DNA of 64,000 nucleotides. It comes from Daejeonella sp. H1SJ63 (GTDB lineage Bacteria; Bacteroidota; Bacteroidia; Sphingobacteriales; Sphingobacteriaceae). Positions 27,284-62,575 of the stretch are shown one piece after another. How positions within the stretch are numbered: position 1 is the first letter of the stretch; every line of letters begins with the position of its first letter. Under the pieces are notes generated by a model. That model saw only the letters and a list, made by a program, of their open reading frames with translations, was not told where the DNA came from and made no database searches. The position numbers and the translations under genes were made by a program. Location of the stretch: assembly GCF_029360775.1 (NCBI RefSeq), contig NZ_JARKMZ010000002.1, positions 124,001 to 188,000 of the forward strand. Direction: 5' to 3'.

Positions 27284-29089
27284 TTAGCCTAATTTGTCGC
27301 CGCGCAGTTGCCGGAATCTTTTTCTGGCCTCAATCACAAAAATGCTGCCGGGATAATCACTTATAATTTTCTGAAAAAGTTCGCGGGCCTTTTCAGGCTG
27401 CTCCAGCCGGGTCTCATAAATATCCGCAAGCATGAATATTGCATCATCTCCCCAAAGTTCAGTGCTGTAATTATCAAGAATCTCCTGAAGTTCAGCAACT
27501 GCCTTTTGCAGTTCATTATTTTTAATGAATATTCTTGCTTTGGCCATTAATACATCGTCTGCAAGAGAGTTATTAGGGAATATTATATGCAGACTATCCA
27601 GTGATTTTATTGCGGCCTCGGATTCATTTTTTAAGATGAACAGATCAGCCTTTGCATATTTTATAAGTGCTGCAGTGTCTGTTTCATTTTGCAGGTTATC
27701 AGAAATAAGCAGACTGAGATCGAGTGCATCATTTGCAATCAGTTGCGATGTTGAGCTTTTTAAGACATCCAGCTGAGCCTTCGACCATGTAAAGTCGCCC
27801 TGGAAGTAAGCAAGTTTCGCATTTTTAAAGCGAGCTTCCTGACCAAGTATGTCATTTGTAAAAGCTTTTTCAACCTGACTATACAATAAAGCGGCCTCCC
27901 ACATTTCTTCGCTAATCAGGTAGATATCAGCAAGTTCTGTTTTGGCTTCGCCAATAACGAGTGGAGGGATGCCATTCAGTTCAATTAGTTTTTGGAGCTG
28001 TTCTGCTGCTTCTTTGGGCTTATTCAGATAATAAGCCTGCAGCTTTGCAAGCTGTCTGATTGCGAAGGTAGTTCCTGCATTTCGTCCAAATTCATTTAAT
28101 AATGACAGATAATCGCCCTCAAGTTTTTCCAGATCGGGTTTACTTAATTTTACTGATTTAAGCTGCTGAGCTCTGACATTTAGGAGGTCAACTCTTGCAG
28201 GGATGTAGTATCTGCCCTGTTGCCCTTTAGCCTTTAGATAGTTCAGAACCTCAATGGCCTGCTCATAAGCCTGATTTGCAATCAGAAGTCTGGATAATTC
28301 ATAGATTCTCCCCCCGTCTTCTTTTAATCTGCGATCAAGAGCCAGGCTTTGCCGTACAGCCATATCAAAATCTTTTTGCTGTACATATTGCCAGGTTAAA
28401 AACTCAGTCATAACCACATTCTGCGGATCTTTCTGAAGCTTTCTTAAAATAGCAGATTTCAGGATGTCATAATCATTTCTGTCTTCAAGGATGCCGCCAA
28501 GCACATTTTGAGCCTGTTGTAGCGTCTGAGGATTGATACCTAAAAGCAGAATGTACTCCTGAATCAGCATGGTTTTATCTTTCCTGAACCTGTACAGGCT
28601 CAGAAGATCGTAGATAAAGGCATTTTCATTATTAACCAGTTTTCTGCCGGTAATCAGGGTCTTTATTGAAAAATCATAGGCTTCAGCACGGTAAAAAGTA
28701 ATTGCCAGATCTTTGACAGCGAATTCATTTGCAGGCAGGTTTCGAATCAAATTGTTAAACCATTCTGAAGATTTAGATTCTTCACCCTTTTCCAGATAAA
28801 CCCGTCCTATATCAACACTATAGGTAAACACTTCAGGATGGCTTTTCATCTGAGTCCGGGCCAGCTTTTCGGCCTCATTGTATTGCCTTGTTTTTAGCAG
28901 GCTATTGAAGTATGGATCGTAAAAACTTAAATTTTTAGTACTGTTGAATAATTTCTCATAAATGACAGCAGCTTTTTCGAAATCACCGGTCTGATAGTAC
29001 TGAACGGCCAGAGCTTCTTCTGTACTTAACTGAGCTTTTGTGCTTAGTGATGTCATAACTATGAAAAGAAATAAAAGAGTTTTTTTCAT
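27284..29089 (-). CDS. Exported tetratricopeptide repeat protein
   Basis: A 601-residue protein with a signal peptide (about 1-19, ending KAQ) and TPR/Sel1-like helical repeats along its length. The C-terminal part (ELWGDDAIFMLADIYETRLEQ ... YPGSIFVIEARKRFRQLRGD) resembles YbgF/BamD-type repeats that scaffold envelope complexes. Role unknown; probably periplasmic or outer-membrane-associated. 37 nt upstream of DUF4286 on the same strand. Confidence 0.78.
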   Translation of the reverse strand: MKKTLLFLFIVMTSLSTKAQLSTEEALAVQYYQTGDFEKAAVIYEKLFNSTKNLSFYDPYFNSLLKTRQYNEAEKLARTQMKSHPEVFTYSVDIGRVYLEKGEESKSSEWFNNLIRNLPANEFAVKDLAITFYRAEAYDFSIKTLITGRKLVNNENAFIYDLLSLYRFRKDKTMLIQEYILLLGINPQTLQQAQNVLGGILEDRNDYDILKSAILRKLQKDPQNVVMTEFLTWQYVQQKDFDMAVRQSLALDRRLKEDGGRIYELSRLLIANQAYEQAIEVLNYLKAKGQQGRYYIPARVDLLNVRAQQLKSVKLSKPDLEKLEGDYLSLLNEFGRNAGTTFAIRQLAKLQAYYLNKPKEAAEQLQKLIELNGIPPLVIGEAKTELADIYLISEEMWEAALLYSQVEKAFTNDILGQEARFKNAKLAYFQGDFTWSKAQLDVLKSSTSQLIANDALDLSLLISDNLQNETDTAALIKYAKADLFILKNESEAAIKSLDSLHIIFPNNSLADDVLMAKARIFIKNNELQKAVAELQEILDNYSTELWGDDAIFMLADIYETRLEQPEKARELFQKIISDYPGSIFVIEARKRFRQLRGDKLG

Positions 29090-29384
29090 AAGTATGCGTT
29101 TATTAAAGTTGCCATATCCATAAAGTTAATGCTAATACATTGAAAACTATACAGCTGATGGATATATTGTCTGGTTTCAAAATTGTTGTTGATTTTGCCG
29201 AATGAACGTGTAGTTTAAATGTTACGATAAGATCGGTATGATTTTAAATGAATTTATTACCTTGAGTTCTTAGTATTAACCAAGGTCTCATTTTACTTCT
29301 TTTTAGGTAAGTATATGTAGTTGCAGCATCAATTAATGATGTTGATTGTAAAATTTTGGGCTTGATTTTATATAGAACCGGAGA
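29090..29384. other. 295-nt divergent spacer
   Basis: AT-rich region between the minus-strand TPR gene and the plus-strand S9-like operon. It must hold both promoters, but I see no convincing TAnnTTTG in the right place on either strand. No small gene seen. Confidence 0.45.
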
Positions 29385-31268
29385 ATGTCATTTAATAAAA
29401 ATTATTTTTTCTTTTTATTTATTCTGATACTGATTTCCTGCTCAGGTGAAAAGGCTGCGAAAAGAATACCAATAGAGAATTTCTTTAGCGTGCCCATTAA
29501 GAATAATTATCTGGTATCACCGGATGGAAAATTTATTTCTTATCTCAAACCTGACAATAATCGTATTCATATTTATGTAGAGACCTGGGATGGGAAAAAT
29601 ACAACACAGCTTACCTGCGATACCAACAGGAGTATCTCTGGTTATTTCTGGGCAAATAATCAGGAGATTGTTTATTTGAAGGATGGTTCAGAAGAAAAGG
29701 ATCCCAGCCTGTTTGCAGTAAGATTTGATGGCACGAATAAAAGGGAGCTTGTTACTTTTAAAAATACTAAGATCAAGTTAATAACTACAGGTCAGGTTCA
29801 CGATGATCATGTTCTGCTAGCCCTGAATAAACGTGATTCTACAGTTTTTGATGCCTACCGATTAAATATCCAAACCGGGCAACTTTCATTACTATTGAAG
29901 AATCCTGGAAATATAACCAAATGGTTCTCGGATCCGGCTGGTAAGCTGAGAATGGCAGTAGCCAGCGATGGTGTAAATGAAACGATATTATACCGGGATT
30001 CAGAGAATCAGAAATTCCGGGCGGTATTAACCAACAATTTTAAAACCAGTGTATTACCGGTTGCATTTAGCGCTGACAATAGCTGTATTTATGCATTGTC
30101 TAATCAAAACAGAGACAGAATGGCTTTGGTTGAGCTTGACTGCATTACCGGTAGTGAACACCGTATTATTTACAGTAATCCTGAGGTAGATGTTACTGAT
30201 GCAACTTATTCTGTGAAAAAAGGCAAGCTTGTTTTTGCCGATTTTGAGACATGGAAAAAAGACAGACATTACCTGGATGATACTGTGAAGAACATATTTA
30301 AACAGCTCGACAAATTGCTTCCAAATACAGAAATCAGAGTCGGCAGTTCTGATTTTGATGAAAAGAAATTCATAATCCGTAGCTATACCGACCGTAATCC
30401 GGGTTCTTTCTATCTGTACACTCCGGATGATAATAAGCTGGTAAAGTTGAGTGATGTAAATGCTACTCTGGATGTGGATGAACTTGCAGAAATGAAGCCT
30501 GTAAGTTTTATTGCCAGAGATGGATTGCTGGTAAATGGATATCTGACCCTGCCTAAGGGGAGTAAAAAGAAGAAACTTCCGGTGGTAGTGATACCTCATG
30601 GCGGCCCTGATTCAAGAAACAGCTGGGGTTATAATTCGGAAGTTCAGTTTTTGGCTAACAGAGGTTATGCTGTATTTCAAGTCAACTTCAGAGGATCAAA
30701 AGGTTATGGGAAAAAATTCTGGATCGCAGGATTTAAAGAATGGGGTGGAAAAATGCAGGACGATATTACGGATGGAGTAAGATGGCTGATTTCGGAGGGG
30801 CTTGCTGATCCAAAGCGTATTGCTATTTACGGATCAGGATTTGGTGGATTTTCTGCACTGCATGGGTTATTTACAAGGCCGGATCTCTATAAATGCGGTG
30901 CTTCTTATTCAGGATTTACAAATTTGTTTGCTTACCTGAAGGATATTCCACCATATTTCAGACCATATCTTCAGATGTATTATGAAACGGTAGGTAATCC
31001 TGAAACTGATGCCGATTATTTCAGGGCCATTTCACCGGTGTTTCAAACTGACAAAATAAAGTCACCGGTACTAATTGCACAGGGTACCAGAGATCCAAGG
31101 GTGAATATGAATGAGACTAATCAGTTTGTTAAAGAATTGAGAAAGCGAAATGTACCTGTTACATATTTATTAAAGGACGGTGAGGGGCAGATCTTCAGGA
31201 ATAGCGGGAATAGGCTGGAACTTTATAAGGAACTTGAAATATTTCTTGCAAAGAACCTTGGACGATAG
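29385..31268 (+). CDS. S9 prolyl-oligopeptidase-like lipoprotein, catalytically degenerate
   Basis: A 627-residue lipoprotein (lipobox SC19) with an N-terminal beta-propeller-like region (about 30-370) and a C-terminal S9 alpha/beta-hydrolase fold (about 390-625). The fold is well kept (HGGP, GSKGYGKKFW, GTRDPRVN with Asp570), but the nucleophile elbow reads G483-S484-G485-F486-G487-G488, with Gly where the family has Ser, and the terminal EGHGF is EGQIF, with Gln602 for His. Two of three catalytic residues are lost, so peptidase activity is unlikely. It precedes a histidine kinase by 6 nt, which suggests a ligand-sensing role. Frame is intact, so it is not a decaying gene. Confidence 0.85.
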   Translation: MSFNKNYFFFLFILILISCSGEKAAKRIPIENFFSVPIKNNYLVSPDGKFISYLKPDNNRIHIYVETWDGKNTTQLTCDTNRSISGYFWANNQEIVYLKDGSEEKDPSLFAVRFDGTNKRELVTFKNTKIKLITTGQVHDDHVLLALNKRDSTVFDAYRLNIQTGQLSLLLKNPGNITKWFSDPAGKLRMAVASDGVNETILYRDSENQKFRAVLTNNFKTSVLPVAFSADNSCIYALSNQNRDRMALVELDCITGSEHRIIYSNPEVDVTDATYSVKKGKLVFADFETWKKDRHYLDDTVKNIFKQLDKLLPNTEIRVGSSDFDEKKFIIRSYTDRNPGSFYLYTPDDNKLVKLSDVNATLDVDELAEMKPVSFIARDGLLVNGYLTLPKGSKKKKLPVVVIPHGGPDSRNSWGYNSEVQFLANRGYAVFQVNFRGSKGYGKKFWIAGFKEWGGKMQDDITDGVRWLISEGLADPKRIAIYGSGFGGFSALHGLFTRPDLYKCGASYSGFTNLFAYLKDIPPYFRPYLQMYYETVGNPETDADYFRAISPVFQTDKIKSPVLIAQGTRDPRVNMNETNQFVKELRKRNVPVTYLLKDGEGQIFRNSGNRLELYKELEIFLAKNLGR

Positions 31269-31274
31269 TTTGAA

Positions 31275-32948
31275 ATGAAAGAGTATCAGCAAAATTATCG
31301 CAAGAATTTTTCTCTGGTTATTCTTTTTTTGATCCTGATTACTACCTCAATGGGAGGTGCTTTTTTTCTTGCTTTCAATCTTACCTCAAAGTATGTTGAA
31401 AATGAATTTGTTTCACAGAAAATTGAAGTCCTCGAAGAAACAGTAAAACCTTACAATGATTTTTTTCAGAATACCATCCCTGAAATTTCTTTTTATCAGG
31501 GATATCTGGATTCTGCACAGGCAACTAAGTTCATTGATACAATATTTAACAAATTCCGGTTTGTGGATCGTGTGTTATTTTATGATGCCGGAATCAGTAA
31601 TCATAATCTCCCTGATGGAATCAGAGTTGGGAACTTTACAATGGCTCCAAAATCAGTTTACCAGTTTTCCAGAAATATTCATCCTGATTCAATAGTACTT
31701 TATAAAGAGAATCAATACAATAATGCTTTCTCGACAAAAGCCGGAGATGAATTCAATAAAATGGCCTTGAAGTTCAGTGGTTTTATTACTTCAGCAGATA
31801 CAACCAAAGTACTGAGCGATGCTGACCGTTTTAATGTATTTTACAGTATTAATTCGGGAAGGATCACTTTTATGAACATTCCCAGAAACGAAGAAATCAG
31901 AATATATAAAGACCTGATGGATAAAAATTCTTCATATTCTCCTGTTTATCAGTCTGATATGATGACATTTTATCTCAACCCCCTGCATTTGCACATCATT
32001 AATACAAATCCTGAGCTTTATGAGTATATCAGTATTAAGCCATTGGTATACGAATATCTGGAGAATAACCCTGATCTGATCAGTAATGATTTGCCTTTAT
32101 CCGGACCATTTTCAGGCTATAAACTGTATTTCAGTTCAAGTAAGGATTATTTAAGAAAAGAGATAAATTCCAGATTCAGGCCGATTGCAGGAGGGCTGTT
32201 TCTTACTTACACCATACTGGTATTTATTGCTTATCTGATATACCGGAATTTAAATATCAACAGCAAACTGTTTAAACTTCAATATGACTTTATCAATAAC
32301 CTGACCCATGAATTCAAAACCCCTGTCAGTGTAATAAAGATTGCCGGAAATAACATCAGAAGTGCAACAAAACTTACAGATCATGAACGACTTCATTACG
32401 GCAAGATTCTGGATGAAGAGGCAGAAAAACTCAATGATCTTTTGAATAAACTTTTGTCTTTTACTCAGATTGAGAACAAGGCTATTAAAATCAAACCTGA
32501 GAATATTAATCTGGAAGTGTTTTGTCAGAATCTGATAGACAGTTATCAGCTAAAATATCCGTTATTTGACATTAGTTGTAATATCAGGGATATAGATTAT
32601 CTTAAATCAGATCCAGTGCTTTTAGGCAGTATCTTTCAAAATCTGATTGACAATGCTTATAAATATTCCAGACCGGATAAGAAAATATTGGTAATTGATA
32701 TTTCAAAAGTAAAGAAGCAGGTCATTTTCAGATTTATTGATCAGGGAATCGGGATTCCGGAAGATGATATTGAAAATATATTTAAAAAGTTCTTCAGAGT
32801 TCAGAATGAATACAATCAGCAGGGGAGTGTTGGTCTCGGTTTGGCATTCTGTAAAGAACTGGTTAAATTTATGAACGGAACTATTACAGTTGAGAGTATT
32901 GAAGGTAAGGGATCTGAATTTAAAATTGAATTGCCACTCGAAATATAA
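31275..32948 (+). CDS. Membrane sensor histidine kinase
   Basis: A 557-residue class I histidine kinase: membrane helix about 11-33, a periplasmic sensor domain of about 265 residues with no family I recognise, a second helix about 303-322, then HisKA with H345 in THEFKTP, N-box NLIDNAYKYS, and G boxes DQGIGIPEDD and GLGLAF. The downstream regulator starts 2 nt after the stop, and the upstream S9-like lipoprotein ends 6 nt before the start, so the three are probably one transcript. The signal is unknown; the large sensor domain could contact the pseudopeptidase. Confidence 0.92.
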   Translation: MKEYQQNYRKNFSLVILFLILITTSMGGAFFLAFNLTSKYVENEFVSQKIEVLEETVKPYNDFFQNTIPEISFYQGYLDSAQATKFIDTIFNKFRFVDRVLFYDAGISNHNLPDGIRVGNFTMAPKSVYQFSRNIHPDSIVLYKENQYNNAFSTKAGDEFNKMALKFSGFITSADTTKVLSDADRFNVFYSINSGRITFMNIPRNEEIRIYKDLMDKNSSYSPVYQSDMMTFYLNPLHLHIINTNPELYEYISIKPLVYEYLENNPDLISNDLPLSGPFSGYKLYFSSSKDYLRKEINSRFRPIAGGLFLTYTILVFIAYLIYRNLNINSKLFKLQYDFINNLTHEFKTPVSVIKIAGNNIRSATKLTDHERLHYGKILDEEAEKLNDLLNKLLSFTQIENKAIKIKPENINLEVFCQNLIDSYQLKYPLFDISCNIRDIDYLKSDPVLLGSIFQNLIDNAYKYSRPDKKILVIDISKVKKQVIFRFIDQGIGIPEDDIENIFKKFFRVQNEYNQQGSVGLGLAFCKELVKFMNGTITVESIEGKGSEFKIELPLEI

Positions 32949-32950
32949 AT

Positions 32951-33637
32951 ATGCAAAAGGAGATAAAAATAGCAGTAGTTGAGGATGATGAAAACCTGAG
33001 GTTTTTAGTTGTTCATCGTCTTAAGACAGAAGGGTATAATGTTGTTGAGGCTTCTGATGGAATAGTTGCAGAAGAACTGATTATGACAGAACAGCCCGAT
33101 ATAGTGTTGCTTGACTGGATGCTTCCCGGAAAGCAGGGTTCAGAAGTATGTCAGAATGCAAGGAAGCTTGGTTTCGATAATATCATCATTATGATGACAG
33201 CCAAAGCTCAGGATGTAGATAAGATTGATGCCTACAACTTTGGTGTGTCTGACTATGTTGCAAAGCCATTTAATATGGATGTTCTTGTTGCCCTTATCGA
33301 AAACAAGGTAAAATATGTAATTAATAGCGAAAAATCTGAAGTTTACAGGTTTGGTAATATGGAGCATCATCCTAATACCCATTCATTAATGCGCGACGGA
33401 AAGAAGATAGAACTTACTATTCTGGAGAACCGGATTCTGCTTTATTTTCTTAAAAATGCCAATACTGTTATAAACCGCGACGAATTAATGATGGTAGTTT
33501 GGGGATATAACTCAGATGTGAACACAAGAACCCTGGATATGCATATTGTCAGACTTCGTAAGAAAATTGAAAGTAATCCTGACAGGCCACACTTTATGCA
33601 GACTGTACGGGGAGTTGGCTATAAGTTTATTATTTAG
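32951..33637 (+). CDS. OmpR/PhoB-family response regulator
   Basis: A 228-residue regulator: receiver domain (1-120) with acidic pocket VEDDE near 10 and phospho-acceptor D55 in LLDWMLPG, conserved K in AKPF, and a winged-helix DNA-binding domain (about 130-228, ending VRGVGYKFII). Partner of the kinase immediately upstream. Target genes unknown. Confidence 0.94.
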   Translation: MQKEIKIAVVEDDENLRFLVVHRLKTEGYNVVEASDGIVAEELIMTEQPDIVLLDWMLPGKQGSEVCQNARKLGFDNIIIMMTAKAQDVDKIDAYNFGVSDYVAKPFNMDVLVALIENKVKYVINSEKSEVYRFGNMEHHPNTHSLMRDGKKIELTILENRILLYFLKNANTVINRDELMMVVWGYNSDVNTRTLDMHIVRLRKKIESNPDRPHFMQTVRGVGYKFII

Positions 33638-62157: not shown

Positions 62158-62364
62158 ATGGAAGACTCATTAAATAATAATTCAACTGCAGAAGCGAATA
62201 ATCCTTCTCATTATACTACAATTACTTTAGGTATTATAATCGGTTTAACCGGTATATTTTTACGCTTTACCGGTGAGAGTAGTATGATTAGCATTATCTC
62301 TAACGTTCTTTGGGTCGTTGGAAGTGTAATCTGTCTGAGAGCAGTATTGAAAATCTTAAAATAA
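62158..62364 (+). CDS. Small two-helix membrane protein
   Basis: A 68-residue protein of unknown function with a polar Asn-rich N-terminus (1-20) and two hydrophobic segments (about 22-38 and 44-62). It stands alone 67 nt after atpG and may be the last gene of that transcript. Codon use looks coding. Confidence 0.6.
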   Translation: MEDSLNNNSTAEANNPSHYTTITLGIIIGLTGIFLRFTGESSMISIISNVLWVVGSVICLRAVLKILK

Positions 62365-62575
62365 GAATATTTCCTTAACAGGAAGGGGCTCATATCCGTA
62401 AGGTTATGGGCTTTTTTATTTTCCGGGCTTTATTTTCAGTTTCAGATTTATCTGCTGATTGCCATGCATATTATCATTTTACCACCCAATGCATTTAACG
62501 CTTTAAATACACAAATGGATAATTTGTTTTTCTTATTTGTAACATGTAAATTACAATACCTGAACCAATGAAAAC
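62365..62575. other. Spacer with terminator-like hairpin
   Basis: About 210 nt between the small membrane gene and the final lipoprotein gene. ATATCCGTAAGGTTATGG followed by GCTTTTTTATTTTCC at 62391-62424 looks like the end of the upstream transcript. Otherwise AT-rich with nothing recognised. Confidence 0.4.

Follow-up and report, generated by a model that had tools for sequence, protein, structure and literature searches.

Recurrent loss of catalytic residues from the S9-fold lipoprotein of a conserved three-gene signalling operon in Sphingobacteriaceae

The stretch of DNA analysed here, in the following called the window, comprises 64,000 nucleotides of Daejeonella sp. H1SJ63 (assembly GCF_029360775.1, contig NZ_JARKMZ010000002.1, positions 124,001 to 188,000) and harbors an operon of three genes on its forward strand. 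The first gene (29385-31268) encodes a lipoprotein of 627 amino acids with the fold of the S9 serine peptidases, i.e. a beta-propeller combined with an alpha/beta-hydrolase domain, which appears to be catalytically dead by its sequence. It is followed after 6 nucleotides by the gene of a membrane histidine kinase (31275-32948, 557 amino acids), in which the HisKA and HATPase_c domains are intact, and after another 2 nucleotides by the gene of an OmpR/PhoB-type response regulator (32951-33637, 228 amino acids). The phosphorelay residues are kept in both signalling proteins, namely the phospho-acceptor His345 of the kinase and Asp55 of the regulator. Comparison with related genomes revealed a recurrent loss of catalytic residues, approximately 12 times, in this conserved three-gene signalling operon.

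The catalytic positions of the lipoprotein were checked directly, and residues 485, 570 and 602 were found to be Gly, Asp and Gln. In the alignment to 5l8s, a solved S9 acylaminoacyl peptidase, Gly485 (30837-30839) takes the place of the nucleophile Ser in the GGSYGG motif and Gln602 (31188-31190) that of the catalytic His in the EGHGF motif, while the triad Asp is retained as Asp570 (31092-31094). The C-terminal domain is matched by the full Pfam profile Peptidase_S9 (7e-44). The S9B propeller profile DPPIV_N stayed below its threshold with 14.1 bits against a cut-off of 22. An AlphaFold2 model built from 19 sequences is confident (predicted local distance difference test score, pLDDT, 86.7; predicted template modelling score, pTM, 0.86) and was matched by Foldseek to 5l8s over nearly the full length with template modelling scores (TM) of 0.78-0.81; hence, the S9 fold is complete in the window protein. 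The preliminary description of the locus, which was made from the letters and their reading frames, had already given the open reading frame positions, the intact frame, the two short gaps, both residue replacements with the Asp kept, and a whole S9 fold, and all of this was confirmed. Judged by its sequence, the protein thus has the fold and the Asp of an active S9 serine peptidase but neither the nucleophile Ser nor the His, and it probably has no peptidase activity. Its N-terminus is a lipoprotein signal, ILISC with the lipobox Cys19 (29439-29441, MSFNKNYFFFLFILILISC), a position that is nearly invariant and carries more than 97% of the weight in triad-less copies. The mature protein is expected in the periplasm.

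The operon is near-universal in the Sphingobacteriaceae. We analyzed 60 relatives, 201 genomes sampled evenly across the order and, at the DNA level, 117 distinct S9 copies with intact frame. Among the 60 relatives, S9 and sensor-domain matches are adjacent to each other in almost every family member, and in the sample of the order the S9 gene and the kinase sensor are each present in 200 of the 201 genomes. The sole genome without them is the same one for both (G013), and its regulator ortholog is missing too, with just distant homologues (33%) being detectable. The S9-kinase-regulator adjacency was observed in every family copy examined at the DNA level, and the kinase start is located -4 to +30 nucleotides from the S9 stop (median 6) in all 117 distinct intact copies. 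Hence, the linkage, for which the preliminary description knew a single strain, is an old trait of the family and not a strain peculiarity. No S9 protein of the lipoprotein clade was found apart from the kinase, and with the window kinase as query no unlinked S9 homologue was found beside another kinase. Fusions of S9 and kinase were also considered and rejected, since none was found and the frame of 1013 amino acids at locus L189 is due to a reading frame that extends further upstream. As a side observation, one genome of the Solitalea group (G023) carries a second, unlinked S9 copy (L192 3001-4797) that is 46% identical and has the canonical GGSYGG and EGHGF motifs, while its operon copy is triad-less.

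The preliminary description had further expected the loss of Ser and His to be conserved together with the linkage. This did not hold, because copies of the same operon in the closest relatives, with 72-78% identity, still possess Ser, Asp and His, a finding which the preliminary description itself had listed as contrary to its reading, and the claim was rejected in view of a full triad in 26 of the 117 linked copies. The other 91 are without Ser and/or His and are hereafter called dead. All 21 unlinked homologues, which come from several phyla and are 33-47% identical, carry Ser-Asp-His, with no loss among them. It may be mentioned that two contigs of metagenome-assembled genomes titled Pedobacter schmidteae (L064, L090) hold operon copies which share 78-82% identity with the window and cluster with Daejeonella copies, a possible mislabelling.

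The residues that replaced the triad differ between the two columns. The nucleophile position of dead copies is mostly Gly, in other copies Arg or Asn, and Ser in three copies, whereas the His column, which is the most relaxed column of the S9 protein in dead copies, contains R, N, K, T, F, D, A, Q, Y, S, M or a gap. The triad Asp is retained by all full-length dead copies except one. The Ser codons of linked copies are always AGT or AGC, one step away from GGT or GGC, and from the structure of alpha/beta-hydrolases Gly would be a natural substitute at the strained nucleophile elbow. Several linked copies have lost the Ser and kept the His, and the few copies with Ser and without His are placed inside a mostly Ser-less clade; therefore, Ser was usually lost first. 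One could assume that the dead copies are still hydrolases which use an alternative nucleophile or base, given that Asp570 and the elbow are retained and the His is still present in some relatives whose Ser is replaced by Gly or Arg. We regard this as very improbable, because Gly dominates at the nucleophile, the His column holds about a dozen residue types, and no conserved substitute is seen.

The number of losses was estimated on two trees, an S9 tree from which the catalytic columns were removed and which was rooted on the unlinked homologues, and a kinase tree built independently of the S9 sequences. Both gave 12 losses of the triad state, and on both trees unrestricted (Fitch) and loss-only (Dollo) parsimony agree; the S9 tree was made with a quick method and has some long branches. 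At least 10 losses are forced by well-supported (starred) branches, and the His taken by itself was lost 7 times. The change seen in the window is private to its own branch, since the other 12 of the 13 copies in its clade are intact.

The dead copies are under strong purifying selection with a ratio of nonsynonymous to synonymous substitution rates (dN/dS) of approximately 0.04. The median from the Nei-Gojobori method applied to close pairs, whose values are approximate and whose pairs are non-independent, is 0.036 among dead linked copies (41 pairs), compared to 0.053 among intact linked copies and 0.171 among unlinked ones. Relative to the kinase domain, the regulator and a neighbouring TPR gene as references, the hydrolase domain evolves at the same rate on dead and intact branches (0.320 vs 0.321, p = 1), and the propeller at 0.452 vs 0.377 (p = 0.15). 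His405, Asp570 and the elbow glycines 487-488 are invariant in dead copies. This bears out the earlier suggestion of a scaffold under selection. Catalysis could thus be given up without a loosened fold, which suggests that much of the constraint on the protein is non-catalytic, even in intact copies. Likewise, approximately 12 residue losses in one operon without relaxation of the fold imply that the shared function seemingly needs no catalysis.

Two further explanations must be weighed against these rates. One of them regards the window gene as a pseudogene in progress, in line with a few relatives in which the S9 gene is frame-broken or missing. The window frame is intact, however, its branch shows no acceleration (S9 relative rates of 0.33, as in the sister branches), and the dead clades show the low dN/dS given above; decay was rejected on the basis of dN/dS and relative rates, and we attach hardly any weight to it. 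The other one assumes that catalysis matters in the intact lineages, where the enzyme would produce or degrade a peptide that the kinase binds, and that the dead copies switched function and share no single role. The linked copies with full triad, including most of the window's clade, fit this assumption. Yet neither S9 domain shifts in rate after the loss, the losses are spread over at least 10 lineages, and the operon architecture is identical before and after them, which makes this explanation improbable.

The phospho-acceptor motif of the kinase is intact in all 151 copies. The periplasmic sensor domain of the kinase (approximately residues 34-302, 31374-32180) has no Pfam match, in agreement with the earlier remark that it belongs to no recognised family. 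The domain model (pLDDT 79, pTM 0.68) consists of helix-sheet modules between long helices, and its best Foldseek matches are mostly dCACHE-type domains of chemoreceptors and kinases. Since none of them reached an E value of 0.001 or below, the model suggests, rather than establishes, a divergent dCACHE domain, i.e. a double PAS-like periplasmic fold, with weak dCACHE/PDC likeness. The domain seems to be family-specific: a profile search of 295 genomes of the class did not find it outside Sphingobacteriaceae, and a single-sequence search of 247 class genomes gave only a marginal match outside the family.

The upstream region of the operon contains a conserved element of 17 base pairs, TGTAGTTTAAATGTTAC (29209-29225, forward strand), in which two TGT half-sites are placed 11 base pairs apart. 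The half-sites of PhoB-type sites are likewise 11 base pairs apart. The element is matched at 15-17 of the 17 positions by the majority of copies from the Daejeonella group and by many from elsewhere in the family, compared to approximately 11.4 in shuffled sequences; the copies sampled from some further genus groups did not contain it. The exact element occurs in the genome at the operon upstream site only, and it is absent in a small-genome relative (G029) in which the S9 gene is missing. We consider it a candidate binding site of the regulator and a candidate autoregulatory site. The degenerate motif TGTA-N7-TGTTAC was counted 7 times in the genome and 8 times in the control; at this control frequency no regulon can be called. 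A near match, TGTAATTTACATGTTAC, was noticed on the reverse strand of the window (62539-62555), between a small open reading frame (62158-62364) and a long one leaving the window end (62725 onwards). The TPR protein of 601 amino acids encoded divergently next to the operon (27284-29089, reverse strand) adjoins the operon in other family genomes as well.

Taken together, we find it reasonably probable that the three genes jointly specify a three-component system for envelope sensing, in which the S9 lipoprotein has a non-catalytic role as accessory or ligand-binding subunit and can do without peptidase activity. According to this proposal, an active, bifunctional S9 enzyme would have been recruited beside the kinase in the ancestor of the Sphingobacteriaceae. 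Its regulatory role would have been kept, while the dispensable peptidase activity was lost about 12 times, usually beginning with the exchange of Ser to Gly. The lipid-anchored protein may then modulate the kinase via the periplasmic domain of the latter, with its scaffold serving as a binding module, and the kinase would subsequently phosphorylate the regulator. Binding of peptides, as the preliminary description had supposed, would be one possible way in which the lipoprotein could provide input to the kinase; the contact of both proteins and the nature of the signal are likewise supposed here. For the more specific scenario, that the S9 protein was captured as a kinase co-receptor while still active and discarded its triad some 12 times without relaxation of the hydrolase, so that intact, Ser-less and fully dead stages now exist in one operon, we see about equal chances of being right or wrong.

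Several observations weigh against such an accessory role. The evolutionary rates of the S9 protein and the kinase sensor covary no more strongly than in control comparisons (rho 0.03-0.17). In the aforementioned genome G029, kinase and regulator are found in synteny and the S9 gene alone is missing (L191 3084-7397); its sensor domain is not a rate outlier, and relaxation after the S9 loss was looked for and not seen. Furthermore, a frame-broken S9 gene stands beside an intact kinase in three genomes, G142 (L211), G212 (L213) and G199 (L186/L210). These broken genes are all triad-less and come from single-contig assemblies, and they may reflect real decay or sequencing errors. The kinase can thus persist without the S9 protein, which is an auxiliary and not an essential component of the system. 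The missing rate covariation and the surviving kinase-regulator pair of G029, as well as the conserved and possibly regulator-binding element in the promoter region, would also fit the assumption that the lipoprotein is a co-regulated output, i.e. a protein with a binding or scaffold function in the envelope that does not touch the kinase, and for which the operon only provides co-expression. We consider this unlikely, albeit the most serious of the alternatives, because the S9-first gene order is invariant with near-zero spacing in the whole family, the entire cassette is absent together in G013, and the lipoprotein clade was not encountered apart from the kinase.

The accessory role, if true, would provide a testable input for a near-universal and apparently unstudied two-component system of the Sphingobacteriaceae. 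Moreover, the strong Peptidase_S9 match invites annotation as peptidase, while approximately three quarters of the distinct operon copies sampled cannot use the S9 mechanism. The intact, half-dead and dead copies in one operon represent natural replicates for asking whether the loss of catalysis is preceded and made possible by a regulatory function. In the limited open-access literature we found nothing on this operon; accessory-lipoprotein kinases and S9 pseudoenzymes are each known, and we came across no bacterial case there in which both are combined and so many parallel losses occurred.

Among accessory-lipoprotein kinases, the QseE-QseG-QseF system of Enterobacteriaceae resembles the present one in having a lipoprotein in one operon with kinase and regulator; the lipoprotein QseG binds the periplasmic part of the kinase QseE and activates it (PMC6075780, PMC12691602). 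However, QseG is no peptidase relative, whereas here the lipoprotein has the S9 fold and its binding to the kinase is presumed. Furthermore, the lipoprotein gene is in the middle of qseEGF and here in first position, and QseF acts at sigma-54 promoters while the regulator here is of the OmpR/PhoB type. With regard to sequence and fold, the closest solved proteins are S9 peptidases of the acylaminoacyl peptidase type (5l8s, 4hxg, 1ve6), from which the window protein differs by the missing Ser and His, the lipoprotein anchor and the kinase operon. The evolutionary pattern is the same as in the fungal pseudonucleases Ssd1/Dis3L2, for which a bifunctional ancestor was proposed whose active site was lost at least four times with the second function conserved (PMC8097288); these are unrelated in protein and function, and here we count approximately 12 losses of a single-copy operon gene within one bacterial family. 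The inactive S9B proteins DPP10 and DPP6 are modulators of Kv4 channels, and DPP10 has Gly instead of the nucleophile Ser (PMC4350108). They share the S9 propeller-hydrolase fold and, in the case of DPP10, the same replacement of Ser by Gly, and they act as non-catalytic partners of a membrane protein, as is proposed for the S9 lipoprotein. Even the GKG(Y/F)GG elbow of DPP10 is found in the Sphingobacterium-group copies, a convergent feature. On the other hand, DPP10 keeps the His that is missing in the window protein, and DPP10 and DPP6 are eukaryotic type II membrane proteins of the S9B subfamily, in contrast to a bacterial lipoprotein beside a kinase with its nearest solved relatives among acylaminoacyl peptidases. 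Provided that the accessory role is true, the lipoprotein would represent a bacterial counterpart of DPP10 and DPP6, in which an S9 scaffold was recruited to regulate a membrane signalling protein.

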